A stretch of DNA of 64,000 nucleotides, from positions 1 through 64,000 of the forward strand of contig NZ_WHPF01000006.1 of NCBI RefSeq assembly GCF_013106755.1, read 5' to 3'. Shown piece after piece: positions 13,209 through 26,892 of the stretch; the first letter of the stretch is position 1; each line of letters opens with the position of its first letter. The DNA comes from Limnovirga soli (GTDB lineage Bacteria > Bacteroidota > Bacteroidia > Chitinophagales > Chitinophagaceae). Under the pieces are notes generated by a model, which saw only the letters and a program-made list of their open reading frames with translations, was not told the DNA's origin and ran no database searches. A program made the translations under genes and the position numbers.

Positions 13209-14495
13209 TTAACCAGCCTGTAAATGATTGTACTTTCTTTTAAAATAAATGGCGCCAATGACAGTACCAATTATTCCTATTACAGTTATTATCATTACGG
13301 CATCAGTAAAAAATGCTGTCCACGATAATGTAACGCCAATAAACTCTTTTAAAAACAAAACAAATGCACTACCCAAATAACCAAAAGCATCAGCTATATA
13401 CATAATAAAACCCACATTACTTTTTATACGATAGGTGGCAATCATACGCTCAAAATACAAAGCATTAAAGGGTACATAAGCCAGGTATAATCCGGTGCCA
13501 ATACTGGTAATCCATATAACAGGATTTACGAGCTGATACATAAATAAAACAGTTACAATTAAGGCCAGGGCATAACCTGCAATTATAATCACATGGTTAA
13601 TCATAAAAGCCCTGATATTATTTTTTACCAGGACCAGGCAGCTCATAATTGCCAGCACGATTAACGATACATAGGTTTCTGATACGGTAAAAATAGCAGC
13701 ATTGTTGCCATAGCCAAGTTCTGTCCATAATTCATTGGCAAAATTATCCCTGAAATCCCGCAAAATGGTAAGCAAAACATAAGTAATAACAATGATAACA
13801 ATACCCGGCAAAAAAGTACTGATAAAAGATCGTCGTTCTTCTTTGGTCATGGGTTTACGTACACTGCGCAGGGCAATATCTTTTTCATCTGGCGGTGGTA
13901 TATGGTTTAGTAACCAGGTAAATAAAAACATTGGTAATACAAAAAAACCGCCAGCCAAAAAAGGCATCCAGAATTCGCTAACATGCCAGTTTAGCAAAAT
14001 GCTTTTACCCACCGTTTTTACAACTCCTGAGGAGAATATAAAACTGATTGAAAGCACTGCTCCCATAAATTCGGTGGCTTTGCGCCCTTCTAAAAACCCA
14101 AATACCAAACCCCAAACCATGCCTAATGGAAACCCATTTAATAATAAAAACACAATACTATATGGCGCCGGTGTTATAGCAAATAACAGCAAGGATAACC
14201 AGGCCAACAAAATCAGTTTTACAATGGTATTGGCTCTTTTTTCGGGTTGCATGCCGCTGATAAAACGGATACCATAAAACTTACTTAGCATATAGCCTAT
14301 TAACTGTGCTGAAACCAGCCATATTTTATAGTCGAACCCCAGAAATTGAATACCATCGAAAGTACCAACCGTAAAGGGTTTACGAAAAGCATACATGGAA
14401 AAATACACACCAAATGAAGTAACTGCGGCAAACAAGGATAAAGCCCATGGCGGGAATTGCTGCAACTTACGTTGTAATACGGCTGAGGTATACAT
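13209..14495 (-). CDS. DUF5690-family MFS transporter, possible phosphonate carrier
   Basis: A 428-residue polytopic inner-membrane protein with about 12 hydrophobic segments. The N-terminus (FGVYFSMYAFRKPFTVGTF, about 28-46) has the MYAFRKPF signature of the DUF5690 branch of the major facilitator superfamily, related to organophosphate:phosphate antiporters. It is the last gene in a minus-strand block that otherwise encodes 2-aminoethylphosphonate degradation, with a repeat-bearing 186-nt spacer before it. From context I infer uptake of 2-AEP or another phosphonate. The fold is firm; the substrate is inference. Confidence 0.75.
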   Translation of the reverse strand: MYTSAVLQRKLQQFPPWALSLFAAVTSFGVYFSMYAFRKPFTVGTFDGIQFLGFDYKIWLVSAQLIGYMLSKFYGIRFISGMQPEKRANTIVKLILLAWLSLLLFAITPAPYSIVFLLLNGFPLGMVWGLVFGFLEGRKATEFMGAVLSISFIFSSGVVKTVGKSILLNWHVSEFWMPFLAGGFFVLPMFLFTWLLNHIPPPDEKDIALRSVRKPMTKEERRSFISTFLPGIVIIVITYVLLTILRDFRDNFANELWTELGYGNNAAIFTVSETYVSLIVLAIMSCLVLVKNNIRAFMINHVIIIAGYALALIVTVLFMYQLVNPVIWITSIGTGLYLAYVPFNALYFERMIATYRIKSNVGFIMYIADAFGYLGSAFVLFLKEFIGVTLSWTAFFTDAVMIITVIGIIGTVIGAIYFKRKYNHLQAG

Positions 14496-14611
14496 AAAAG
14501 TATAGTAGTAATGTTAGTAGCGTGAATGTAGCTAAATTTTATATGGACAGTATAATAAAGATGTCTTTTGAATTGTTTAAAACCCTTTTGCTGGACATTG
14601 ACCAGAACCCT

Positions 14612-14628
14612 GCAGTGTGCGACGCAAG
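14612..14628 (+). repeat. Dispersed intergenic repeat, truncated type I core
   Basis: gcagtgtgcgacgcaag followed by taaagccc; the gtacaag start is replaced by ccctgcag. It lies between the FAD oxidoreductase and DUF5690 genes. Confidence 0.75.
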
Positions 14629-14681
14629 TAAAGCCCAATTCTTAATCAACAGCCTGGTACAAAATCGCCTTTTAGGTAATA

Positions 14682-15911
14682 CTAACCACTTCGCTTTTGG
14701 GAACGTGCCAGCGCACATTGCTGCAACCATTCATCACTAAAGGGATCAATAACACCAAATCTTTCCAAATTAAATGCACTTATATCAAAAGGACTTTGTT
14801 TGCCGGCAACCAGCTCAGCCAGCGCCAATCCCACACCGCCGGCGGTTGAAATACCTGCGCCTACGCAGCCTGCCGCCGCAAACAGTTGTTCAACACCGGG
14901 TACTTTACCTATGCTTAAATTATTATCGGGTGTATAGCCCGAAAAGCCTGCGATATAATGCTTTAAACCAATATCGTAAATGCCGGGAAAAAATTTGGCC
15001 AGCTGGTGCATTACTGCTGCAAGATCTGCCATCCCACCATCGGCACTAAAAGAATAATTGCTAATATCATCTGGAATTTTATCAGGGGAAACTACCAGCG
15101 ATTGTGGCTCCCTAATACCAAATAACAAACTGCCTCCTTCGGGCCGGGCATATGCCTGCGCATCGGGTAACAGCGCAATGGGTTGGGTTACCGGAAACAA
15201 GTTATGCCTTTCGGTAATCCAATATTGGCTACGTACGGGTGCCAACGGCAAACCTACCCCCACCTGCTTGCCCAATAGCGGCGACCAGGTACCCGTAGCA
15301 ATAACCACAGCATCGGCATAAAAATTACCGGCACTTGTGCTTACACCTGTAACAATATTTTGTTGTTGAATTAAACCGGTAACCGCCACCCCTTGCCGAA
15401 TATTGGCGCCTTGCATTTTAGCACAACGCGCAAAGAATGTACCCAGCAGGTAGGGGTCGCAATAACTTTCTGTAGGCATAAAACCCGTAGCCAGTACTTC
15501 ATCAGTTTGCAGCCAGGGAAGTTTTTGTTTGGCAGTATTGTTATCAATGTATTCAGCTGTATCACCAAATTCTGCAGCAATTTGCATCAACTGCTTCAAA
15601 TCGTTTACCGAGTTTTCGGAGGCAGCAATATGTAATACGCCTGTTTGTTTTATATCCAGGCTTTCCTGTAATTGTTTTTCCATAGCAGCAATTGCTGCGT
15701 AGGTTTCTAATGAAAGTGGTATAAAATGCTGTTTGCTGCGTATACGGGTAAGTAAGGCCGCAGCCCTGCTGGTAGCAGCATTGCAAATTTCATTGCGCTC
15801 TAACACTAACACTTTACGGCCGGGATTATTCCGGGTATAATAATAGGCAATAGCGCAACCAAATATACCACCGCCAACAATAATTACATCTGCCTGTTGA
15901 GCTGTTGTCAT
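14682..15911 (-). CDS. FAD-dependent amine/glycine oxidoreductase of the phosphonate locus
   Basis: A 409-residue DAO-family flavoenzyme. The N-terminal FAD-binding motif is DVIIVGGGIFGCAIAYYY (8-25), and the C-terminal CVGAGISTAGGVGLALAELV is the second FAD contact. Family members oxidise glycine, sarcosine or other secondary amines. The stop of phnW lies 8 nt upstream, so the two are co-transcribed. DAO-type enzymes recur in 2-AEP catabolic clusters and are thought to act on 2-AEP or its N-alkyl derivatives. A second option is oxidation of the glycine formed by PhnZ. The cofactor and family are clear; the substrate is inferred. Confidence 0.8.
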   Translation of the reverse strand: MTTAQQADVIIVGGGIFGCAIAYYYTRNNPGRKVLVLERNEICNAATSRAAALLTRIRSKQHFIPLSLETYAAIAAMEKQLQESLDIKQTGVLHIAASENSVNDLKQLMQIAAEFGDTAEYIDNNTAKQKLPWLQTDEVLATGFMPTESYCDPYLLGTFFARCAKMQGANIRQGVAVTGLIQQQNIVTGVSTSAGNFYADAVVIATGTWSPLLGKQVGVGLPLAPVRSQYWITERHNLFPVTQPIALLPDAQAYARPEGGSLLFGIREPQSLVVSPDKIPDDISNYSFSADGGMADLAAVMHQLAKFFPGIYDIGLKHYIAGFSGYTPDNNLSIGKVPGVEQLFAAAGCVGAGISTAGGVGLALAELVAGKQSPFDISAFNLERFGVIDPFSDEWLQQCALARSQKRSG

Positions 15912-15919
15912 ACCGCTTA

Positions 15920-17008
15920 TTATTTTGCCGACAATTCTTTTATGGCTTCCAGTAATGCCTTAACATCATCAGGATAAATCTGGCCAATATTGCCAATCCT
16001 GAATGCATCTGTCTTACTCAGCTTACCGGGGTAAATCACAAATCCCCTGTCATTTAACTGATTGTAAAAATCTGCAAAATTAAAAGAAGGGTCTGCAGGA
16101 TATAAAAATGATGTAATAATATGCCCTTGAATTTCCGGTTGCAGGTATTGAATATATCCTAAAGCGGCCATCCCTTCATCCAGCACTTTTTTATTGGTTT
16201 TATACCTGGCTTCCCTTGCAGCAATGCCTCCCTCCTCTTCCAATTCCCTCATGGCTTGCCTGAAAGCAAGTATGCTTAAAGTGGGCGGCGTAAACCTAAA
16301 CTGTCCATTGGTTTCCAATCCATACCATTGGTCATAAAGGTCAAGACTTAAGCTTCTGGCCTGCCCCTTGCATTTGTTCAGTTCTGCGCTTTTACATAAA
16401 GCAAAAGAAAAACCGGGTACCCCTTCAATACACTTATTTGATGATGAAACAAGATAATCAATCTGCATGGCTTTCATATCCATTTCCACACCGCCAAAAC
16501 TACTCATAGCATCCACAATAAATACTTTGTTAAGCGTTTTACACACATGGCCTATGGCTGTTATCGGGTTAAATAATCCAGTTGTTGTTTCGCTATGTAT
16601 ACAGGCAACATGTGTAATCTCTTTATGTTCCTGCAAAAAGGCATCTGTGGCTGCAGCTGTAACTATTTCATCCTCATCAAAACGTAAAACATGGTGTATA
16701 ATTCCATGAATATTGGCCATTTTCACAATACGTTCTCCGTATGCTCCATTCACTAATATAAGCAATACATCATTTTTACCAACGGCACTGCTAATTACGC
16801 TTTCTACGCCAAATGTGCCAGAACCCTGTACAATTACACACTCGTAGCCATCCTCTTTACTCACATGCGCCAGGGCAAGTAAACCATTGCGAATATCTTT
16901 CACCGCCTGTACAAAAACGTGGTCTCTAGATCCTACATCTTCCAGCATAGCCTGCTTAACAGTATCAGAAGTGGTAAGCGGACCAGGGGTAAACAATAAT
17001 TTTCTCAT
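15920..17008 (-). CDS. phnW: 2-aminoethylphosphonate:pyruvate transaminase
   Basis: A 362-residue class V aminotransferase that transfers the amino group of 2-AEP to pyruvate, giving phosphonoacetaldehyde and alanine. The start KLLFTPGPLTTSDTVKQAM and DVGSRDHVF are PhnW signatures, D166 (VDAMSSFGG) contacts the PLP ring, and K192 (SSSNKCIEGVPGF) is the Schiff-base lysine. Length matches the family. It follows phnY after a 213-nt spacer that holds a type I repeat, so it may have its own promoter. It feeds PhnY directly. Confidence 0.95.
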   Translation of the reverse strand: MRKLLFTPGPLTTSDTVKQAMLEDVGSRDHVFVQAVKDIRNGLLALAHVSKEDGYECVIVQGSGTFGVESVISSAVGKNDVLLILVNGAYGERIVKMANIHGIIHHVLRFDEDEIVTAAATDAFLQEHKEITHVACIHSETTTGLFNPITAIGHVCKTLNKVFIVDAMSSFGGVEMDMKAMQIDYLVSSSNKCIEGVPGFSFALCKSAELNKCKGQARSLSLDLYDQWYGLETNGQFRFTPPTLSILAFRQAMRELEEEGGIAAREARYKTNKKVLDEGMAALGYIQYLQPEIQGHIITSFLYPADPSFNFADFYNQLNDRGFVIYPGKLSKTDAFRIGNIGQIYPDDVKALLEAIKELSAK

Positions 17009-17069
17009 ATGTCAAGGTATTCTAATAATTAATTAAATTTTTGTAGCCAAACTAGTGCCCAAAGCCAGT

Positions 17070-17104
17070 CATTACTTGCGTCGCACACTTGTACTGTAGT
17101 AATG
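17070..17104 (-). repeat. Dispersed intergenic repeat, type I, with inverted arms
   Basis: Minus-strand core gtacaagtgtgcgacgcaag (17075-17094) bounded by perfect 6-bp arms cattac (17070-17075) and gtaatg (17099-17104). It is the best example of possible terminal inverted repeats in the family and lies between phnY and phnW. Confidence 0.85.
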
Positions 17105-17221
17105 CTATTCAGCTGTAAACAGCCATAACACTTAAATTTATTCTGCCAATTTGCATGAATAACAAAAAGAAAACTTAGTAAAACAAGTATAGATTCAGCT
17201 TATATAAAAAGCTAATTCTCA

Positions 17222-18691
17222 TTACCAGGGCATAGAAAATGTTTTTACAAAAGTGAAACATTTCATGGCTTCAATTACGCCTTCCTTCACTCCAAGCCCT
17301 GAATCCTTTATGCCACCAAATGGAGAGCTTTCAATACGATAACCCGGTACTTCATTAATATTTACCGTACCCACTTTAAGCTCTTTTATAAAGCGAATGG
17401 CGTTTTGCATATTGTTGGTAATAATACCGCTTGATAAGCCATATGCGGTAGAATTACTTAAAGCAATGGCATCATCAATATCAGTAAAGCTAAGTATGGG
17501 TGCTAATGGACCAAATGATTCCTGCATCACCATGTCTGCATGGCGAGGCACATCAGTAATTACAGTTGGTTGCATTAGTGCCCCTATACGTTTTCCACCC
17601 AGTACAACTTTGGCACCCTGTTCAACAGCTTTGTTTACTACAGTCTCCAAATAAATTGCCGATGCCTCATCAATTACAGTACCTACAACTGTTGCCGGAT
17701 CAGCGGGATCACCACAGAGATAACTCTTTGATTTTTCTACAAATTTTTCAATAAAAGCGTCTTTTATTTTTTCGTGTACCAATATGCGCTTAACGGCAGT
17801 ACAACGCTGACCACTATTACGGTAAGCGCCTTCAGCTGCGAGGTGAACGGCAGTATCCAGATCAGCATCCTCCAGAATAATAACCGGATCGTTACCTCCT
17901 AATTCCAGAATCACTTTTTTATAACCCGCGGTTGTTGCAATTCTTTTACCAACTGGTACACTACCGGTAAAAGAAACAATTTCTACCCTTGGGTCTTTCA
18001 CCAACGGCTCTGCAATTTCACTGGTTGGGCCCAGTAAAGTACTTAGCATGTAAGGTGGCAACCCAGCTTCATATAATAATTCTGTAAACTTAATCGCTGT
18101 AAGGGGCGTTTTCTCGGATGGTTTTAAAATTACCGGTGTACCAACTGCAATTGCCGGAGCAATTTTATGTGCCACCTGATTTAACGGATGGTTAAATGGT
18201 GTGATGCATAAGGCAAGCGATAATGGTTCCCGCATAGTAAATATTTTGCGGGCTTTACCTTGTGGAGAAATATCGCAGGAATAAATATCTCCATCATCTT
18301 TTAAGCTCTCCATTGCTGCAAACATCAGCACATCATGTGCCCTGCCTGTTTCATAAATGGCTTCTCTTATTGCTAAACCAGATTCGGCACTTATAATTTT
18401 TGCAAACTCATCTTTACGCTCCACAAGCAGCTGTCTTGCCTTATCCAGAATACTAAATCTATCGTACCTGCTTAGTTTTTTACCACCTTGTAATGCTGCT
18501 TCAATTGCCTGTTGTGCATGTGCAGCATTGGCCAAAACTACAGTTCCTACCACACGGTTATCATAAGGGCTTTTTACTTCCAGTATTTTCTCTGAAACCA
18601 CTTTTACCCCTGCCACATAACAATTGGTTTCTAATACCGGCAAACCATTTCCCAAGGAAGGGAATTGTGTTGTTATTGTTGTTTCACTCAT
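17222..18691 (-). CDS. phnY: Phosphonoacetaldehyde dehydrogenase
   Basis: A 489-residue aldehyde dehydrogenase that converts phosphonoacetaldehyde to phosphonoacetate with NAD. The active site is intact: Asn167 (TPFNHPLN), Glu263 (LELGGNDP) and the nucleophile Cys297 (NSGQRCTAV). The family alone does not fix the substrate, but it sits 11 nt after phnA and upstream of phnW, the order expected for the PhnW-PhnY-PhnA route. No phosphonoacetaldehyde hydrolase (PhnX) is in the window, so this dehydrogenase appears to be the main exit from phosphonoacetaldehyde. Confidence 0.92.
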   Translation of the reverse strand: MSETTITTQFPSLGNGLPVLETNCYVAGVKVVSEKILEVKSPYDNRVVGTVVLANAAHAQQAIEAALQGGKKLSRYDRFSILDKARQLLVERKDEFAKIISAESGLAIREAIYETGRAHDVLMFAAMESLKDDGDIYSCDISPQGKARKIFTMREPLSLALCITPFNHPLNQVAHKIAPAIAVGTPVILKPSEKTPLTAIKFTELLYEAGLPPYMLSTLLGPTSEIAEPLVKDPRVEIVSFTGSVPVGKRIATTAGYKKVILELGGNDPVIILEDADLDTAVHLAAEGAYRNSGQRCTAVKRILVHEKIKDAFIEKFVEKSKSYLCGDPADPATVVGTVIDEASAIYLETVVNKAVEQGAKVVLGGKRIGALMQPTVITDVPRHADMVMQESFGPLAPILSFTDIDDAIALSNSTAYGLSSGIITNNMQNAIRFIKELKVGTVNINEVPGYRIESSPFGGIKDSGLGVKEGVIEAMKCFTFVKTFSMPW

Positions 18692-18702
18692 AGCATTAGA
18701 TT

Positions 18703-19941
18703 TTAATTGGTTCCATTAACAGTAAAATCAAAAATGTCGAAATTACGTGGATCGCCAGCCGCCTTCATTCTATAGGCTGCATTTAAGGGATGAGAAATAA
18801 TCATTGGAACCATTTCTTCATACCTGCCGCCATGAGATCGCAAAGTACCATCCAGTGCAGATAGATCATGGTATTGAGGTTTTCTACCTACTACTACATC
18901 TCTGCCTGATAAAACCACTAAATCCCCAATTCGATCTTCCGGCTGTTCCAGTACACGAACCGCAGTAGCCCTGTCGTAAACTTCTGTTATACCCGGTTGA
19001 ATGGTTAACCAGTTTTTGATTTCATTTATTTTAGAGGTGTCTGGCACATGCACAACTACATAAGAACCCAAAGCACCATGGTGTTTTACATAAGGATCTG
19101 TAATAGGACATATTACCCTGAAGCCTTCTCCAAATTGTGCTTCCAGCATATCTTCTACAAAAAGCACATTGGGTGTACCATCCTGTTTTACTTTGGCGTT
19201 CATACCATGATCGGCAGTGGCACCTACAACAGCACCCAAAGCAATCATTTTACCAATTTCTGCATCCATTGCTTCGTAAAAAGCCAATGATTCTTCGGCT
19301 TCAGGTGCATAGGTATGCTGCATATAATCTGTAAGCGACAGGTATAGAAAATCGGCCATTCCTTGTTCAATTAGGGCAACACCGGCACGCAGTACAAAAA
19401 GGCTGGCATCCGCACTATAAATGGCAGGTGTGGGAAACCCAATCACTTCTTCGGCATTTTCGATACCATGGGTTTCTATTTTTGCCAGGTTGGCCTTTTC
19501 TGCAGAAAAAGCAATTCCGTTTAATTTGAACGATAAAATATCTCTTAGTTTTTCCTTAGCTGTAACCACCCCAACCTTACGACCTGCATTGGCAGCAGCA
19601 GCTAATAAAGTTTCGGCACGTAAATATTCTGATGAGTTCATCATTACTTCCTGATCGATGGCGGCATTATAAAAAAAGTTGCCGCTAATACCATGAACGG
19701 CTGGTGAAACGCCCGTTACGATAGAAGAATTATTAACATTGGTAAAAGAAGGTAATGCACCGCGTACCATGCCGCGATACCCATTCACTGTCATTGCTTT
19801 TAGATTTGGCATCCGGTTATGGGCCGAGGTAATATCCAGGTATTCATCTGCAGAACCATCAATACAAATAACCACAATTGGTTTAGCTGCGGGCTGATAG
19901 GTTTTTCCATTTACCGAAAAAGCATTCGTTGAAATAGTCAT
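18703..19941 (-). CDS. phnA: Phosphonoacetate hydrolase
   Basis: A 412-residue alkaline-phosphatase-superfamily zinc enzyme that splits phosphonoacetate into acetate and phosphate. VICIDGSADEY carries metal ligand D28, and PSFTNVNN holds the catalytic Thr67. DYMQHTYAPE and GATADHGMN supply further Asp/His ligands. There is no signal peptide, so it acts in the cytoplasm. It lies 49 nt after the PhnZ-like gene and 11 nt before phnY, clearly in one operon. Together with PhnW and PhnY it completes mineralisation of 2-AEP to phosphate. Confidence 0.94.
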   Translation of the reverse strand: MTISTNAFSVNGKTYQPAAKPIVVICIDGSADEYLDITSAHNRMPNLKAMTVNGYRGMVRGALPSFTNVNNSSIVTGVSPAVHGISGNFFYNAAIDQEVMMNSSEYLRAETLLAAAANAGRKVGVVTAKEKLRDILSFKLNGIAFSAEKANLAKIETHGIENAEEVIGFPTPAIYSADASLFVLRAGVALIEQGMADFLYLSLTDYMQHTYAPEAEESLAFYEAMDAEIGKMIALGAVVGATADHGMNAKVKQDGTPNVLFVEDMLEAQFGEGFRVICPITDPYVKHHGALGSYVVVHVPDTSKINEIKNWLTIQPGITEVYDRATAVRVLEQPEDRIGDLVVLSGRDVVVGRKPQYHDLSALDGTLRSHGGRYEEMVPMIISHPLNAAYRMKAAGDPRNFDIFDFTVNGTN

Positions 19942-19990
19942 GTGTATATATTTATTATTAGAACTGTTTTAATTTTAATCATTTGAATAA

Positions 19991-20569
19991 TTACTGGTCA
20001 TTCAAATAGGAATTTATTAGTTTATTAAAATGTTGCAAGGGTAAAATTTCAGCATTGGCATCTTTGGCCATTTCATCCCATAGTCTTACCCGAATAATAT
20101 CATCAAAAAAAGGATGTTGTTTAAAAATGAATATTTCTTCTTCGGACATGGGGCCACCCTGAAAAATTAGTGTTTGCTTACTGGCCGGCGAAAGTCTTGC
20201 TGCATACTCATTATCTGTTGCAACAAGGTATCTTTTGGCATCTACATGTTTGCTTACCATAGTGCAGATGCGTTCTGAAAATCCGTTTTGCTTTAAATAC
20301 TCTGCCCCTATCGCTTCATGATTTAACACTCCAAAAGTTCCCATAGCTTCGGTTTGCTGTATGTGTTTTAGGAGATGGCCAATATCATGCAGAAAGGCGC
20401 CAAGTATAAGTTCCATATCTGCGCCTTCACTCATAGCCTGCATGGCACATTGTACCATATGCGAGGTTTGTGAAACGGGCTCACCATCATAATCTTCGCT
20501 GCCATATTGCCCAAACAACTGCATTATTTCAGCGGCAATGATACTGTTATTAATTTGCGATTTATTCAT
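19991..20569 (-). CDS. phnZ: PhnZ-like HD-domain mixed-valence diiron oxygenase
   Basis: A 192-residue HD-domain protein that keeps all key PhnZ residues: Tyr27 and Glu30 (the substrate-sensing YDGE loop), and ligands His37, His61, Asp62, His65, His84, His108 and Asp165. PhnZ cleaves 2-amino-1-hydroxyethylphosphonate to glycine and phosphate with oxygen. AKRYLV and QGGPMSEEE also match. Its usual partner PhnY* (an Fe/2-oxoglutarate hydroxylase) is not in the window, so the hydroxylated substrate may be taken from outside or made elsewhere. It starts 8 nt after the phosphatase-like gene. Family firm, substrate likely. Confidence 0.85.
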   Translation of the reverse strand: MNKSQINNSIIAAEIMQLFGQYGSEDYDGEPVSQTSHMVQCAMQAMSEGADMELILGAFLHDIGHLLKHIQQTEAMGTFGVLNHEAIGAEYLKQNGFSERICTMVSKHVDAKRYLVATDNEYAARLSPASKQTLIFQGGPMSEEEIFIFKQHPFFDDIIRVRLWDEMAKDANAEILPLQHFNKLINSYLNDQ

Positions 20570-20577
20570 GAGTGCCC

Positions 20578-21657
20578 TTACTGTTTGAAAATTGAAAAAA
20601 TGGGGGCAGCAACAGGATGGGCAGGAGTAAAATTAAAACCTAATAAAGCAGCAAATGTTGCAGCCAACTGCCTTTGTTGCAAAGGCGTACTGTTTTTTGC
20701 TTCTCCGGCTGCCTTGGTATCTGGCCCAATAGCTGCAATCCATATTTGATCAGCATCAGGAATTTCTTCACCATGGGAAGTCCATTGTGCTTTTATCTTA
20801 TCTCCACGACCATGATCGCAAGTGATGAGTAAAGTGGTTTTATCCTTGTATTCGGGCATAGATTGTATGATATTCCAAATATCCGCTATCATGGCATCTT
20901 CAGCATGAGCACTTTTGATGTATTGATCGTAAATACCCGCATGGGCCATATCATCTGTTTCATCGAAAGCGATATACAACACTTTTGGTTTGTATGCCTT
21001 AAAATATTCACGTGCTGCGAAATAGGTAATTACATCAGGGCGAACACCAATGGGCCTTGTGGTTAGAAACTGCATATCATTAATCAACTGCAATTGCTTG
21101 TTTGGGAAATTAATGGTATCAACATCGGCGTTAACATATATGCCACTGCGCCATTTATTAAGTATATAAGGAAATACATCCCAGGTAGTAAATGCAGCTA
21201 CCTTATCTGAATAGCCTTTTTGTTTATTGATGAATTCAAGAACGTTTTCGTTTTTGTTTTTTATTTTATCGTTTGAGTTAACAGCCGTATCAGGATATCC
21301 GGTAAAAATTTCGTTGTATCCGGGATAGGAAAACTTGTACGGGTTAGCTACATTAACATTACTACCCTGATTTCTGTTACCATATAGCTGACCATGACTG
21401 GCAATTGTTTTCCAGAAAAAGGGAAATAATTTTTGTCTGCGTTCTTCGGCTGTGGAAGCCCAAAAACTGGTGGCCATTTCTGCAGAATCCTGCGTAAATT
21501 TTTTATTGCTCATGATGGCAGGATCTACCCCGCCAAATACTTCCTGCCAGCGCATACCATCTAATGTAACGATGACCAGGTTTTCTGTTTTACGGTCTTG
21601 TGCTAATAATACGAAACAAGAAAAACAGGTTAATATTGAAGTAATTATATATTTCAT
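20578..21657 (-). CDS. Exported alkaline-phosphatase-superfamily hydrolase
   Basis: 359 residues with a signal peptide (1-20, ending LLAQ). Metal-site elements are visible: Asp33 in VTLDGMRW, candidate nucleophile Ser110 in KFSYPGYNE, DETDDMAHAG, and the Asp/His pair in TCDHGRGD. It belongs to the sulfatase/phosphodiesterase branch. It heads the operon that continues to phnZ, phnA and phnY, with an 8-nt gap to phnZ. I infer that it works in the periplasm or outside to release phosphonate or phosphate from esters (phosphonolipids or glycans), supplying the cytoplasmic enzymes. A general phosphoesterase or sulfatase remains possible. Confidence 0.78.
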   Translation of the reverse strand: MKYIITSILTCFSCFVLLAQDRKTENLVIVTLDGMRWQEVFGGVDPAIMSNKKFTQDSAEMATSFWASTAEERRQKLFPFFWKTIASHGQLYGNRNQGSNVNVANPYKFSYPGYNEIFTGYPDTAVNSNDKIKNKNENVLEFINKQKGYSDKVAAFTTWDVFPYILNKWRSGIYVNADVDTINFPNKQLQLINDMQFLTTRPIGVRPDVITYFAAREYFKAYKPKVLYIAFDETDDMAHAGIYDQYIKSAHAEDAMIADIWNIIQSMPEYKDKTTLLITCDHGRGDKIKAQWTSHGEEIPDADQIWIAAIGPDTKAAGEAKNSTPLQQRQLAATFAALLGFNFTPAHPVAAPIFSIFKQ

Positions 21658-21754
21658 GCCAGTTGTTTTGCTATGAGATTTTCACAGGTTAATAAGATCG
21701 CAGGCATCTTTTAATACTGCTTTGCTAATGCTTTTGCTGCATAGTATTGGTACA

Positions 21755-21774
21755 GTACAAGTGAGTGACACAAG
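21755..21774 (+). repeat. Dispersed intergenic repeat, type II core
   Basis: Core gtacaagtgagtgacacaag, preceded by gcatagtattggtaca and followed by gaacgatgcc. It lies between susD and the phosphatase-like gene. Confidence 0.85.
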
Positions 21775-21831
21775 GAACGATGCCAATTGATTAATAAGCT
21801 GACTAAAAAAGAATTGAAACGGTATAACATG

Positions 21832-21868
21832 AAAAAGAGGCGAAGCTGAAACAACTTCGCCTTCTTTT
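21832..21868 (-). terminator. Terminator after susD
   Basis: Stem aaaaagaggcgaag / cttcgccttcttttt (one mismatch) lies 14 nt past the susD stop with a minus-strand U run. It separates the SusCD transcription unit from the phosphonate operon downstream. Confidence 0.75.
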
Positions 21869-21881
21869 TATGCAACAACAT

Positions 21882-23465
21882 TTATTTGATGATCCACATT
21901 TCTGCATTGATATCATCCTGACCGCCATATTGACTAGATAAAGCAGCAGCAAGATTGGTACCATTTACAGTTAACTCGTTAGATGGATACTGATACCTTT
22001 TAGGAATTACACCACCATTACCAGAACCTGAACCTGCATCAAATGAAGGTATACCAGTTCTACGCCATTGGTAGTATGCCTGTAAGCCAGAGTTGCGGGC
22101 ATATGCCAGGTATTTTTGTGTAAGTATCTGGGCTAAACCATCGGCGTTATTGCCTTTATATTTTACACTTGACTGGTTAAAATAACCGTCGAAACTAAAT
22201 GGAACTGTGTAGGTAATATTTGAACCACCCAAACCCTGGAAATAAACTGTATTATCACCATCTATAATACCATAGAAATCGAACATTGCAGTAGTACCTT
22301 TTTTATACCATGCTTCAGCATCACCGGTAATCCATCCGCGGTTGATAGCTTCTGCTATGCAGAAACAAACTTCTGGATAGCTTACAATAAGTGTTGGCTC
22401 AGCAGCATAGCCAGTATAATAGTGATGGTAGTTATACAATGATAATTTACCTTCTCCAGACTGTGTTGCCAATGTACTAACATCCTCACCTGATTTCGCA
22501 CCTACAAATGAGCTATATGAAGTATCGCTAAAGCCAAGACCACGGGCAGGCTCGGCCAATACCATTGCACGAATATCATGCAGGTTACCTAAGGTAGATA
22601 ACAGCGTTGCAGCAAGGTTTAAACGGCCTGCATTATTACCATAGTTAGTGATATTATCCGGGTAATAATTGTAGGTTGCATTATACTCGTACTGCAGATT
22701 ATCATCGTTACTGGTAAATATTGGATATTGACTTGGGTTGTTAAAAATGGTAGCAAATTGTTGTTTAACATTAAGATCTGCATCATCTGCACGTTTACTT
22801 AATTCAATTAATACACGCAATTTGTAACTGTTTACAACTTTTTGCCATTCTACCAATGCGTCGCGGCCATTAGAACCACTGAAAGGAGCATTGATTCTTT
22901 CTTTATAATAGAAATCACCAGAGAATTCAAGAAAACCATTGCCTAAGAAATCGTTCAACATAATATTAGCAGAATCTAACCATGCCAAAGATTGTTTGAA
23001 GATTTCTTTTTGAGAATCGTAAACGGGAGCCGGATTGTCTAAGCCCTGTAATGCCGCACTCATTGGTAAATCGCCCACTTTCTCGGTCATATTTACGAAG
23101 AAATATGCACGGAAGAAAAGGCCTAATGCATGATAAGGATTGTTATCAGAACCAGCAAGTCTTCTTGCTTCAGACTCCATTGCCAATACATTTCTTAAAG
23201 TACCATAATTTAAATTGGCACTACCGCTCCAGTATTGGTTTTGACCATAGTAGGTATAATTGGAAACAATAAACTGGCAGGCTTTATCTTCATCACCACC
23301 AGGATATACAATCATATCATTTAAAATAACCGGCAATACCAAAGATGGTGGAACCTGCAGTGGCAGGTTTGAATTTTTTGAGTAGTCCTCAAACTTTTTC
23401 GAACAGCTGGTGACAAGCACTACCGCTGTAAGAGCAAGTATTATTTGGAATTTTACTGATTTCAT
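21882..23465 (-). CDS. SusD/RagB-family outer-membrane lipoprotein (SusD-like 2 type)
   Basis: About 527 residues. From the ATG at 23465 there is a lipoprotein signal peptide ending LVTSC, so the protein is anchored in the outer membrane. The upstream Met (23531) would overlap susC and spoil the signal. The helical (TPR-like) body and the C-terminal QWRRTGIPSF, RYQYPSNE and DDINAEMW elements are those of the nutrient-binding SusD-like_2 group. It pairs with the SusC porin upstream (52-nt gap). Its ligand is unknown; position next to phosphonate genes suggests a phosphonate-bearing molecule, but a terminator lies between. Confidence 0.9.
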   Translation of the reverse strand: MKSVKFQIILALTAVVLVTSCSKKFEDYSKNSNLPLQVPPSLVLPVILNDMIVYPGGDEDKACQFIVSNYTYYGQNQYWSGSANLNYGTLRNVLAMESEARRLAGSDNNPYHALGLFFRAYFFVNMTEKVGDLPMSAALQGLDNPAPVYDSQKEIFKQSLAWLDSANIMLNDFLGNGFLEFSGDFYYKERINAPFSGSNGRDALVEWQKVVNSYKLRVLIELSKRADDADLNVKQQFATIFNNPSQYPIFTSNDDNLQYEYNATYNYYPDNITNYGNNAGRLNLAATLLSTLGNLHDIRAMVLAEPARGLGFSDTSYSSFVGAKSGEDVSTLATQSGEGKLSLYNYHHYYTGYAAEPTLIVSYPEVCFCIAEAINRGWITGDAEAWYKKGTTAMFDFYGIIDGDNTVYFQGLGGSNITYTVPFSFDGYFNQSSVKYKGNNADGLAQILTQKYLAYARNSGLQAYYQWRRTGIPSFDAGSGSGNGGVIPKRYQYPSNELTVNGTNLAAALSSQYGGQDDINAEMWIIK

Positions 23466-23517
23466 ATAAAATATTTTTTGCTTTAATTTATTAATAGAGC
23501 CAATAAACAAAGTGAAT

Positions 23518-26500
23518 TTAGAATACAACATTTATGTTAATACCATAGCTTCTGGTAGTTGGTGTTTGGAGATCATATTCTCTGTTAATACCACCAAACA
23601 ATGTACGACCAGGATATTGATCAACATCAATATCATGAAATGCTTTAGGGAAGAAGTAGAGCAGATTTCTACCTACCAATGAAATATCTACTTTATTAAT
23701 AAATGATTTACCCAACACTTTTGAAGGCAAAGAATAAGTAATAACTACCTGACGAAGTTTAGCGTAGGTTTTGCTTACCATAGTGTGCTGAGGATCGTTA
23801 TAAAAGCTACTTACATAATCCTGAATCCACTGTGTAGCAGTAGCATTTGGTGCAAATTGTAAATCTTTGTAGTTGGTAATTACACCGGTAACAGGATCGT
23901 ATTGAATACTGGCACCATTAGAAATTTGTACACCATCATTACCCAGCATTGGAGATCCGTCTGCATTGTATGCACCAGCATAGCCTGCATCGCCCCAATG
24001 TTGAGATTCGTATAAACGGGCATCGCCAATCACACCTTCAACGGTATTTTGACCACGGCCACCTTCAGTAAGTTTACGCAAAACACGGTCTTGTATTTTA
24101 CCACCTACCATTCCATCAAACTGGAAAGAGAAGCTAAAAGATTTGTATGAGAATTTGTTATTAATACCCCAAGACCAATCAGGATCGGCGTGACCTAAAT
24201 ATTGGGCTTTAGGTAAATACATTGGGAAACCAGATTCATCATGAATTACTTTACCATCGGGAGTTAATGCTTCATAGCTACCAAAAAGCTGATCAACACG
24301 GTCTCCAATATGATAAGGATATCCAGTACCATTTGACACTTCTGTTACGCCACCTGCAAATGCAGTAAACACCTCTTTATAGCTGGCCCAGTTTACCAAT
24401 ACATCCCATGTTAAACCATTTTTGGTTTGAACCGGAGTACCAGTAATTGAAATTTCTCCACCTGTTCTTTTTGTTGCACCACCATTAGTAGTAAAATAAC
24501 CAAGACCACTAGTTTCAGATAATGACTGATTAGAAATGTTTGGACCATCCTTATATTGGAAATAAGTAGCATTCAAACCCACACGGTTTTTAAGGAAACG
24601 GGCATCAAAACCAAACTCATAGTTGCTTCTTGAAGATGGTTTGATATCTGTATTGATTACATAATTTGGAGAACTGGCCTGTGTTTGGTTATTATAACCT
24701 GGGTATGTTGCATATGGAGGTGTTGACAAACCAAAACTTGGTCCATCATATGGAGTAAAATAGTTATTACCATATCCTACAGGGCTACCTACACCAAGGC
24801 TCTGAAATGCTGTACCAACATAAGAACTTGCACCACCGCCTTTTACATTTGCGTAACTACCCCTAACTTTTAAGAAGGAGATAGCTTTTGGCAAACTAAT
24901 ATAATCAGACAGCGCAGAACTTAAAGTTACTGAAGGATAGAAACCTGAATTATGACCTACTGGCAACGCAGAAGTTTTATCCACACGGCCTGTTGTTGAA
25001 ACAGTGAAATACTTCTTATAGGTAAGATCAACTGAGTAGTAGGCACTTAACATCAACAAATTTGAACCATAAGAGTAAGCCCTGATTGGTTTTAAAGTAT
25101 TGGCAAAAGTGTAAACATTAGGTATAATCAATTGATCGGTACTTACATAACTTGAAGTAAATTTCATGCTACGGGCAGTTCCACCACCAAATGCGCTAAG
25201 AGAAAATCCACTGTTTGCCACATTTTCCTTATTAAACCTTACAATCAAATCTGTATTATTTTCCCAAAGATCACGACGGTCTTCACGGTAGTTACCATGA
25301 TTATGTTCATCACCATAAGGGTGGGCAGAGAATGGTAATTTTTCAGATCTTAATACGTTGTATGTAGTTACATTAGAACGTAACATCACATCCAGGCTCT
25401 TATTAAATTTATAGGTTAATGCTCCCCAACCATAAATATCATTTTTGTAATGGCTTCTTAACCACTCATAACTACTGAAATAAGGATTATGGTAACGCTT
25501 ATATTCAACAAAGTTTGATTGAATACCTTCTTTACCCGGCTGCCAGTAATTAACAATATTTGGGTCAAGTACATTCCAGTCAGCACCTGTCCAAACATCT
25601 ATATTATATATAATACTGTTTGGTCCATACACCGCATCCGGGATATTTGGTGTAAACTGGCGGTTATAATTTAAACTACCTTCTACTTTAAATTTGTCAG
25701 TAACATCGTAGCTACCTAAAATATTAAAGTTAATAGCGTTTAATTGTGTATTAGGTGTAATACCTGTTTGGTGTGTATTAGAAACAGACATACGAACCGA
25801 AGAACGGTCGTTAGCTGTTGAAAAGTTAACATTATTGGTGGTTAGTAATCCAGCCTGTAAAAAGTTCTCCAGGTTATTTTTACCACGTGCCACCCATGGA
25901 GTTGGCTGAATATGACCTGTATAGGTTTGGCCATTGGCAAAAGTGGTTACATAATTTTGGGTTGGGTCATAAGGACCATCATATTGAGGCAGTAACAATC
26001 CGGCATCTAAGCGGGGGCCCCAAACATCATAGTCTTTATCATTTACACCAGATCCTGAACCATTGCTATTGTAGTCGCCAAAAGCATATTTTTGGTTATC
26101 ACCACCACCATACTGGTTTTGCACCTTAGGTATAGCAATAAAACCTTTATTAATTTGCGTACTGCTATTTACTTCTACGGTAAAGCCTTTGTTATTTTTC
26201 TTACCTCTTTTAGTAGTAATTAAAATAGCGCCATTAATACCGCGGCTACCGTACAATGCAGCAGCTGTAGGCCCTTTCAATACTGTATAAGTCTCAATAT
26301 CATCGGGGCTGATATTCCAGGTATCTGAATTAATTGGGATACCATCTACTACATAAAAATTCAGCGGAGATCCGCGAAGTAATACTGTTGGGGAAGCCAA
26401 TAATTCCTGGTTTATACCAACATTTAAACCTGCTACTTTACCCACTAAACCGTTAACCGGGTTAGATTCACGGGCTTTAAGCAAATCACTGCCTTTTACT

Positions 26501-26892
26501 TCCTGTACTGAGTAACCCAGGCGCTTGGTTTCTTTTCTAATACCCAAGGCCGTTACTACTACATCATTTAATTGTGAGTTACCAACAGACAACGCAATTT
26601 GCAGGTAATCACTTCCGGTAACTTTTACCTGTTGTTCATCATAGCCAACATAAGTTACCATAATAACATCACCTTTTTGAGCTGCAATAGAAAACTCTCC
26701 ATTGGCATCAGAGATTGCAGATTTAGATGAGCTCTTTATAAAAAGAGAAGCTGCAGCTATCGGACTTTTTGAAGCTGCATCTACAACTTTACCCCGCAGG
26801 GTAAACCCCTGGGCATTGGCGCCCAGAAACAAAAAAAGGGAACAGCATATTAAAATGCATCCCTTTAACAATGAATGTAATTGTTGGATCAT
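23518..26892 (-). CDS. SusC/RagA-family TonB-linked outer-membrane transporter
   Basis: 1124 residues. A signal peptide (1-27, ending GANAQ) is followed by a carboxypeptidase-like domain (about 30-105), a TonB box region near QLNDVVVTALGI, a plug domain with SPTVLLRGSPLNFYVVDGIP (about 167-186) and the family motif ALYGSRGINGAILITTKRG. The rest is a 22-strand barrel ending YGININVVF. It imports large ligands with SusD using TonB energy. No anti-sigma FecR gene or hybrid two-component regulator adjoins it, unlike many polysaccharide loci. It is first in its operon, and a candidate promoter lies just upstream. Confidence 0.95.
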   Translation of the reverse strand: MIQQLHSLLKGCILICCSLFLFLGANAQGFTLRGKVVDAASKSPIAAASLFIKSSSKSAISDANGEFSIAAQKGDVIMVTYVGYDEQQVKVTGSDYLQIALSVGNSQLNDVVVTALGIRKETKRLGYSVQEVKGSDLLKARESNPVNGLVGKVAGLNVGINQELLASPTVLLRGSPLNFYVVDGIPINSDTWNISPDDIETYTVLKGPTAAALYGSRGINGAILITTKRGKKNNKGFTVEVNSSTQINKGFIAIPKVQNQYGGGDNQKYAFGDYNSNGSGSGVNDKDYDVWGPRLDAGLLLPQYDGPYDPTQNYVTTFANGQTYTGHIQPTPWVARGKNNLENFLQAGLLTTNNVNFSTANDRSSVRMSVSNTHQTGITPNTQLNAINFNILGSYDVTDKFKVEGSLNYNRQFTPNIPDAVYGPNSIIYNIDVWTGADWNVLDPNIVNYWQPGKEGIQSNFVEYKRYHNPYFSSYEWLRSHYKNDIYGWGALTYKFNKSLDVMLRSNVTTYNVLRSEKLPFSAHPYGDEHNHGNYREDRRDLWENNTDLIVRFNKENVANSGFSLSAFGGGTARSMKFTSSYVSTDQLIIPNVYTFANTLKPIRAYSYGSNLLMLSAYYSVDLTYKKYFTVSTTGRVDKTSALPVGHNSGFYPSVTLSSALSDYISLPKAISFLKVRGSYANVKGGGASSYVGTAFQSLGVGSPVGYGNNYFTPYDGPSFGLSTPPYATYPGYNNQTQASSPNYVINTDIKPSSRSNYEFGFDARFLKNRVGLNATYFQYKDGPNISNQSLSETSGLGYFTTNGGATKRTGGEISITGTPVQTKNGLTWDVLVNWASYKEVFTAFAGGVTEVSNGTGYPYHIGDRVDQLFGSYEALTPDGKVIHDESGFPMYLPKAQYLGHADPDWSWGINNKFSYKSFSFSFQFDGMVGGKIQDRVLRKLTEGGRGQNTVEGVIGDARLYESQHWGDAGYAGAYNADGSPMLGNDGVQISNGASIQYDPVTGVITNYKDLQFAPNATATQWIQDYVSSFYNDPQHTMVSKTYAKLRQVVITYSLPSKVLGKSFINKVDISLVGRNLLYFFPKAFHDIDVDQYPGRTLFGGINREYDLQTPTTRSYGININVVF

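Follow-up and report, generated by a model that had tools for sequence, protein, structure and literature searches.

The 64-kb window analysed here (64,000 nt of Limnovirga soli, family Chitinophagaceae; assembly GCF_013106755.1, contig NZ_WHPF01000006.1, positions 1 to 64,000, from a genome of 5.48 Mb) contains a block of nine minus-strand open reading frames at 13209–26892 which we read, with a probability of roughly 0.7, as a phosphonate utilisation locus organised like a polysaccharide utilisation locus. Phosphonates are an important source of organic phosphorus in some environments, whilst the SusC/SusD pumps of Bacteroidota normally serve sugars, SusD homologues usually being glycan binders. 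Open reading frames and family matches agree with an earlier sequence-only reading of this DNA, both in coordinates and in its account of a single block with nine named gene types: SusC, SusD, an exported phosphatase-superfamily enzyme, a PhnZ-like protein, PhnA, PhnY, PhnW, an FAD amine oxidoreductase and a DUF5690 carrier. Judged by gene content, the locus is built like a polysaccharide utilisation locus in which phosphonate enzymes replace carbohydrate-active enzymes (CAZymes). None of the nine genes matches a CAZyme family in a Pfam scan, so that the usual definition of such loci, CAZymes with a SusC/SusD pair (SusCD), does not cover it; the pair is instead co-located with phosphatase and phosphonate enzymes, as in the phosphate utilisation system (PUS) loci discussed below.

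Linkage of SusCD to phosphonate (phn) genes was examined in relatives by four routes, which set out in turn from PhnA, the phosphatase, SusC and the FAD enzyme PbfD, with SusC and SusD sought in the counts by the window proteins only, so that distant pairs, such as that of locus L197, are missed. SusC matches at E ≤ 1e-120 occur in 133 of 394 family genomes. Forty SusC loci were examined, mostly from the upper listed matches and excluding those of the PhnA set and some others; phn genes are present at 29 of these. They are present at none of 20 loci whose SusC-like match is weaker, of which 15 belong to the L. soli genome itself and five are approximately 36 % identical. Within the weaker set, tblastn with the window SusC gives nothing above 70 bits at L303, and L305 has two generic aldehyde dehydrogenase matches, approximately 30 % identical to PhnY. 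For the phosphatase, named genomes were scanned with a profile from eight PhnA-locus proteins, which gave at least 529 relatives; amongst the 80 best of these, SusCD accompanies the enzyme at 43 of 52 loci with phn genes and at 3 of 28 without, the corresponding figures for DUF5690 being 48 of 52 and 3 of 28. Of 395 Bacteroidota genomes, 33 have a PbfD (TIGR03364) match at E ≤ 1e-60, and 32 have one above the cut-off; the 25 PbfD contexts examined include DUF5690 in 20 cases, a PhnX-like gene in 18 and both SusC and SusD in 12 (18, 16 and 10, respectively, in the 20 contexts outside the PhnA and SusC sets). In named genomes the linkage extends to Sphingobacteriaceae, Saprospiraceae and Leadbetterellaceae. 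On these counts the linkage of SusCD with phosphonate catabolism, as proposed by the sequence-only reading, is real, and a functional link of the pair to the phn genes is well supported by genome comparison.

Several observations weigh against so close a tie. PhnA exceeds the TIGR02335 cut-off in 7 genomes of a 395-genome Bacteroidota sample and in 31 of 394 family genomes, with L. soli counted in both, and in neither of the two congeners in the family sample. Twelve of the 35 other PhnA loci have both SusC and SusD, and one more locus starts inside susD; SusCD is absent from the other 22, some of which are short contigs, and the enzymes therefore do not require this pair. Despite this, the absence of linkage in relatives that the sequence-only reading had named as its refutation was not observed, as described above. 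The phosphatase family is likewise found away from phn genes, at 28 of the 80 loci. Amongst the 11 SusC loci that lack phn genes, contig ends truncate six (L255, L260, L261, L221, L227 and L229), four lack them although flanking sequence is present (L258, L264, L280 and L289), and L291 retains only about 1.5 kb after susD. The loci of both congeners are also cut at contig ends and cannot confirm the linkage.

Some individual loci depart from these patterns. In genome G713, a SusCD of the clade described below stands alone at L258, with PhnA–PhnY–PhnW elsewhere, at L081. Two cassettes are apparently decaying, L277 having SusCD and a short PhnZ match only, and L280 having SusCD and no phn gene. 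Distant PhnA-type proteins of 153–199 bits, below the cut-off, occur in eight family genomes; the five of their loci that were examined (L095–L099, 29–33 % identity) have no cassette and were dropped from the counts.

A terminator-like hairpin follows susD at 21838–21862 on the minus strand, with an 11-bp stem and a T-rich tail (−17.5 kcal/mol). The terminator scan that located it returns in all 14 such sites versus 16.8 in shuffled sequences, i.e. no excess; since shuffles give as many sites, the hairpin is credited on its own strength and on its conservation in relatives rather than on the scan. When a stability of at least −12 kcal/mol and a T-rich tail are required, a hairpin is found in 44 of 58 gaps from susD to the next cassette gene, versus 4 of the 153 remaining gaps (50–320 nt) between co-directional genes, all gaps being measured between tblastn hits. 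The sequence-only reading had taken this terminator to make SusCD a separate transcript. The hairpin itself holds up, being present and conserved, which fits separate tuning of susCD and might mean a fully separate transcript; most simply, the element would be a partial terminator that lets susCD be expressed more strongly than the enzymes. The hairpin, along with the many genomes that have phn genes and no SusCD, could also be taken to mean that SusCD is a separate transcript unrelated to its neighbours, an accident of position. We consider this very improbable, because the linkage recurs from several starting points (most plainly from SusC), because much of the gene set recurs in other genera in varying order, and because, as set out next, modules switch whilst SusCD remains. 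Chance neighbourhood was thus rejected on the linkage counts.

Comparison with relatives indicates that the nine-gene locus is one form of a cassette widespread in Bacteroidota, SusC–SusD–phosphatase–PhnZ–module–DUF5690, in which PhnW–PhnY–PhnA (PhnWYA) would be one of two interchangeable modules, a feature that the sequence-only reading missed. A frequent order in relatives, with many variants, is SusC, SusD, phosphatase, PhnZ, PhnX-like, DUF5690 and PbfD, at times preceded by a helix–turn–helix (HTH)-cupin regulator. The version with PhnX-like and PbfD genes (module A; L157, L201 and many of L134–L213) outnumbers the PhnA version in the sets examined. In the window, PhnA–PhnY–PhnW–PbfC occupies the interval between PhnZ and DUF5690, where most relatives have PhnX-like and PbfD; neither of the latter genes is present in the window, and the whole genome has no match above either cut-off. 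In most relatives the module and PhnZ belong to the PhnX-like (TIGR03351), FAD (TIGR03364) and Phn-HD (TIGR03276) families, of which the window shares PhnZ only. The relatives' HAD protein that was tested scores 206.5 versus a cut-off of 218.9 on TIGR03351 and 146.5 versus 220 on the phosphonatase model, and retains the FDxAGTT start as well as a lysine aligned to the Schiff-base lysine of phosphonoacetaldehyde hydrolase. Their FAD protein scores 432 versus 285 on TIGR03364, in which the tested PbfD1 has also been placed (PMC10590968).

With regard to the distribution of the two modules, 73 unique SusCD–phn loci were compared after eleven repeat loci had been dropped, the window itself being excluded. 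PhnA alone is found at 13, a PhnX-like gene alone at 48, neither at 12 and both at none when any PhnX-like hit over 70 bits is accepted; requiring at least 40 % identity gives 13, 39, 21 and 0. The FAD enzymes divide in the same loci into 9 with only PbfC, 50 with only PbfD, 14 with neither and none with both. Naive Fisher tests yield p-values of 6e-8 for PhnA versus PhnX-like and 8e-6 for PbfC versus PbfD; these ignore shared ancestry, which tells against taking them at face value. PhnA does co-occur with PbfD at loci that lack SusCD (L060, L062 and L065). As one stands in the other's place, PhnX-like and PhnY–PhnA can be argued to consume the same intermediate, phosphonoacetaldehyde. L281 carries a hybrid cassette with a PhnX-like gene and a PbfC-like FAD enzyme, which suggests that the two parts of a module may exchange separately.

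A quick maximum-likelihood tree of SusC (106 rows, with long-branch warnings) groups 80 rows, the window included, in one clade (SH-aLRT 99), 68 of them from loci with phn genes. Its members comprise 55 of module-A type, 13 of PhnA type (including the window) and 12 others, several of the last coming from cut contigs. The PhnA-type label changes seven times on this tree, at least six of these on well supported branches, with gains and losses undistinguished; for this reason the cleavage module appears to have changed repeatedly on the same uptake frame. The phn-linked SusCs of L150 and L176 fall outside the main clade, so that SusCD was recruited more than once.

Within the window, PhnW (2-aminoethylphosphonate (2-AEP):pyruvate transaminase; 15920–17008, NF010006 496 versus 296 and TIGR02326 485 versus 401), PhnY (phosphonoacetaldehyde dehydrogenase; 17222–18691, TIGR03250 665 versus 636 bits) and PhnA (phosphonoacetate hydrolase; 18703–19941, TIGR02335 496 versus 408 bits) each exceed curated equivalog cut-offs and co-locate, all on the minus strand, as are the remaining genes below. 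The route from 2-AEP through phosphonoacetaldehyde and phosphonoacetate to acetate and phosphate, which the sequence-only reading had described as complete, is so by family assignment and thus on paper. The 192-residue HD protein at 19991–20569 narrowly misses TIGR03276 (209.1 versus 214.6), yet is closer to the solved PhnZ (PDB 4mlm, 3e-43, residues 7–191 of 192) than to TmpB (2e-31). Both motifs of the PhnZ or Phn-HD oxygenases are retained, the tyrosine and glutamate of YxxE (YDGE, opposite YIGE in PhnZ) and the HD motif (HDIGH, opposite HDLGH); we describe it as a PhnZ-like protein, a candidate mixed-valent di-iron oxygenase. A PhnY*-type dioxygenase that would feed PhnZ with hydroxy-AEP was rejected as a part of this locus, since PF05721 has four matches genome-wide and none here, and a search of the genome for GntP permeases returns one strong match, outside the locus.

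The FAD amine oxidoreductase at 14682–15911 (PF01266, 3e-60) is 41 % identical over 99 % of its length to a gene on plasmid pAB510a of Azospirillum sp. B510, that gene lying approximately 0.9 kb from a phnW; against the other 24 plasmid records listed (of 1262) identity is about 30 % or less. PbfC was characterised from Azospirillum B510 (PMC10590968), and the plasmid gene is tied to it by strain and by proximity to phnW. On TIGR03364, the PbfD1 family, the window enzyme scores 61 bits versus a cut-off of 285. It is thus predicted to be PbfC-like, an N-methyl-AEP dehydrogenase, a prediction that the sequence-only reading had missed.

The transporter pair is defined by adjacent genes, SusC (1124 aa, 23518–26892), a TonB-linked outer-membrane transporter that matches the SusC/RagA subfamily model TIGR04056 (422 versus 368 bits), and SusD (21882–23531; PF12771, E 6e-56), a surface lipoprotein of 549 aa as called, for which a later ATG start yields an N-terminus with a lipobox-like VTSC when read by eye. 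Many phn-linked SusCs of other genera are 67–81 % identical to that of the window and others 37–59 %; the best paralogue in its own genome reaches 31 % over approximately 650 residues, with up to 45 % over 250. SusC and SusD overlap by 14 nt, and the successive gaps are 224 nt (SusD–phosphatase), 8 (phosphatase–PhnZ), 49 (PhnZ–PhnA), 11 (PhnA–PhnY), 213 (PhnY–PhnW), 8 (PhnW–FAD enzyme) and 186 (FAD enzyme–DUF5690). Given that SusD homologues usually bind glycans, such a pair might import a phosphonoglycan from which the phn genes strip the phosphonate decorations; an alpha-L-fucosidase adjoins L082, a PhnA locus without SusCD, and a GH1 beta-glucosidase recurs at four of the 80 loci examined for the phosphatase, with the cassette present at one of them (L151). 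We judge this explanation unlikely, as CAZyme families are absent from the nine window genes, no glycoside hydrolase other than these is seen by eye amongst the recurrent neighbour clusters listed, and at L264 the neighbours of a SusC with 58 % identity are other genes, with no phn gene amongst them.

The 359-residue exported enzyme (20578–21657) exceeds general Pfam cut-offs only, and these narrowly (Metalloenzyme, PF01676, 29.7; Phosphodiest, PF01663, 26.1), and relatives with 46–66 % identity accompany seven other PhnA loci. The metal-ligand motifs DG, D...H, DHG and H are invariant in all eight aligned proteins, as read from the alignment. A structural model of modest confidence (pLDDT 67.6, pTM 0.76) matches PafA (Z 21.0, root-mean-square deviation 3.5, 283 residues aligned), sulfatases (Z 18–20) and the phosphonate monoester hydrolase 2w8s (Z 18.4). 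By modelled fold and motifs the enzyme is a member of the alkaline-phosphatase superfamily; reading its substrate from the fold was abandoned, as PafA, sulfatases and the phosphonate monoester hydrolase lie within about 3 Z of one another and phosphonate and phosphate esters are indistinguishable in this way. A signal peptide, seen by eye, and the lack of a lipobox make a periplasmic location likely, and a phosphonate or phosphate ester hydrolase is proposed.

The DUF5690 protein (428 aa, 13209–14495; PF18943, 562 bits) is modelled as a major facilitator superfamily (MFS) carrier (pLDDT 87.6), and is proposed to import aminophosphonates across the inner membrane. On a second look, its model matches the glucose-6-phosphate transporter SLC37A4 best (Z 33.1), with Z 28–32 for further MFS carriers. 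Although this places a carrier of the organophosphate:phosphate antiporter (OPA) type first, NorA, a galactonate symporter and URAT1 follow within 2 Z, and a fold common to MFS carriers of other substrates speaks against reading the cargo from it. The protein is closest to some module-A copies (69–77 % identity) and one Ferruginibacter PhnA copy (78 %), and only 39–48 % identical to the DUF5690 proteins of 12 other PhnA loci. At the more distant PhnA loci L060, L062 and L065, an MFS protein that is GlpT-like by eye sits inside the cluster.

From these gene families, the linkage and mutual exclusion that recur in SusCD loci and the recurrent hairpin, we infer a pathway in which every transport and ester-cleavage step, the imported substrate, the substrates of the PbfC-like and PhnZ enzymes and the regulation are proposals. 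SusD and SusC would bind an aminophosphonate-bearing ligand and carry it through the outer membrane, the phosphatase-superfamily enzyme in the periplasm would release the aminophosphonate from its ester, and the DUF5690 carrier would bring it into the cytoplasm. There, PhnW acting on 2-AEP and the PbfC-like enzyme acting, presumably, on N-methyl-AEP would supply phosphonoacetaldehyde, to be oxidised to phosphonoacetate by PhnY and cleaved to acetate and phosphate by PhnA, whilst PhnZ could convert (R)-1-hydroxy-2-AEP to glycine and phosphate. The recurrent uptake frame consists of SusCD, the phosphatase, PhnZ and DUF5690. Uptake of phosphonate conjugates or macromolecules is plausible; phosphonate esters such as lipid head groups are plausible substrates because relatives of PF04185 and glycerophosphodiester phosphodiesterase (GDPD) proteins occur in cassettes, and free aminophosphonates may be imported instead. 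By tblastn, PF04185 beta-propeller phosphoesterase relatives are present in 18 of the 73 cassettes and GDPD relatives in 3, the domains having been checked on two proteins of each kind.

More broadly, and on odds that we regard as close to even, Bacteroidota may possess a widespread and dedicated outer-membrane import system for phosphonate conjugates, with a specialised SusC clade, the periplasmic phosphatase-superfamily enzyme as phosphonate esterase, DUF5690 as aminophosphonate carrier and, on a constant uptake frame, a slot in which carbon–phosphorus (C–P) cleavage modules (PhnX-like/PbfD versus PhnWYA/PbfC) are repeatedly exchanged. If so, it would be the phosphonate counterpart of the polysaccharide utilisation locus, and its SusCD clade would explain access to phosphonates too large for porins; a function would be predicted for DUF5690, and TIGR03351 PhnX-like enzymes would be suggested to act on phosphonoacetaldehyde, given that PhnY–PhnA stands in their place.

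Parts of this arrangement have precedents. PusCD complexes of Flavobacterium are induced by inorganic phosphate (Pi) starvation and co-localised with phosphomonoesterases, phosphodiesterases and phosphonate-degrading enzymes (PMC8115612). The likeness of these PUS loci to the window is a SusCD-like pair beside phosphatases, with phosphonate enzymes mentioned; they differ in being defined by expression under Pi depletion. In the main text of that paper the word phosphonate appears twice, and a single sentence concerns degradation. The window also has the catabolic enzymes of the PhnWYA hydrolytic pathway and its accessory FAD enzymes PbfC and PbfD (PMC10590968, PMC12366243); PbfC is reported to be frequent in the FCB group (PMC10590968) and phnY–phnA association is reported in Bacteroidetes, with TonB and SusD having no occurrence in the text of the same paper (PMC12366243). 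The named 2-AEP transporters AepXVW, AepP and AepSTU are proteins other than SusCD pairs (PMC8316502). In the openly accessible journal articles searched, the matches listed describe neither the cassette nor an exchange of modules, and no paper names DUF5690. SusCD beside phosphonate enzymes was already mentioned for Flavobacterium; the wider result here is an uptake frame, common in Bacteroidota, whose C–P cleavage modules appear exchangeable.

The PUS loci also furnish a rival explanation, in which SusCD and the phosphatase scavenge organic phosphorus in general, handling ordinary phosphodiesters and phosphomonoesters, and the phn genes are co-located as further phosphate-starvation genes. 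Besides the Flavobacterium precedent, it would account for the GDPD and PF04185 neighbours, which act on phosphate esters, and for SusCD–phosphatase pairs without phn genes (L185 and L197, and, near contig ends, L186 and L204). An OmpR-type response regulator closest to PhoB (240 bits versus a cut-off of 296) at 13 of 80 phosphatase loci, 8 with phn genes, and a PhoR/PnpS-like kinase at 10, again 8 with phn genes, are in keeping with it, both partners being present at 9 loci; such a pair may reflect phosphate control, which would count against a phosphonate-specific role, or merely a shared chromosomal neighbourhood. Conversely, 43 of the 46 SusCD-bearing phosphatase loci also have phosphonate genes, a proportion biased by a query alignment drawn from PhnA loci, the weaker SusC-like loci have none, and an HTH-cupin regulator often stands directly before susC. 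General scavenging is therefore possible but somewhat doubtful.

The HTH-cupin regulator is found at 21 of 35 PhnA loci and immediately before susC at 20 of 40 SusC loci; tblastn finds no trace of such an XRE-cupin regulator in the window. An orthologue lies unlinked in the same genome (G000:C76:194417-194980), adjoining a beta-galactosidase-like gene (by eye), and is 76–77 % identical to the congeners' SusC-linked regulator, so that action in trans is possible.

A SusC/D pair of Maribacter forsetii, P177_RS04595/04600, strongly expressed in proteomics and proposed to serve laminarin uptake, has expressed neighbours (an alkaline phosphatase, an FAD-dependent oxidoreductase and a phosphonatase-like hydrolase) that resemble module A by gene names only (PMC11345257). 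Its rise on sugars versus casamino acids could reflect phosphorus demand. A SusCD clade dedicated to phosphonates would serve as a warning that some such pairs import something other than glycans, the laminarin proposal being a case in point.

Other recurrent neighbours were also observed. The PhoB-like regulator lies a few genes beyond the cassette at L157 (19093–20886) and 12 other phosphatase loci. L185 and L197 combine SusCD with two tandem phosphatases, L185 also having GDPD genes, and each is perhaps a phosphodiester locus. A second TonB receptor, of siderophore or heme type, is located within the phosphonate cassettes of L146 (6336–8582) and L149 (4812–6851). Finally, a glycosyltransferase-like gene (MJ1255 family, under the cut-off) with a metallophosphoesterase-like gene (by eye) is found at L157 (277–2174) and approximately 15 other phosphatase loci, adjoining cassettes and also phosphatases without phn genes.

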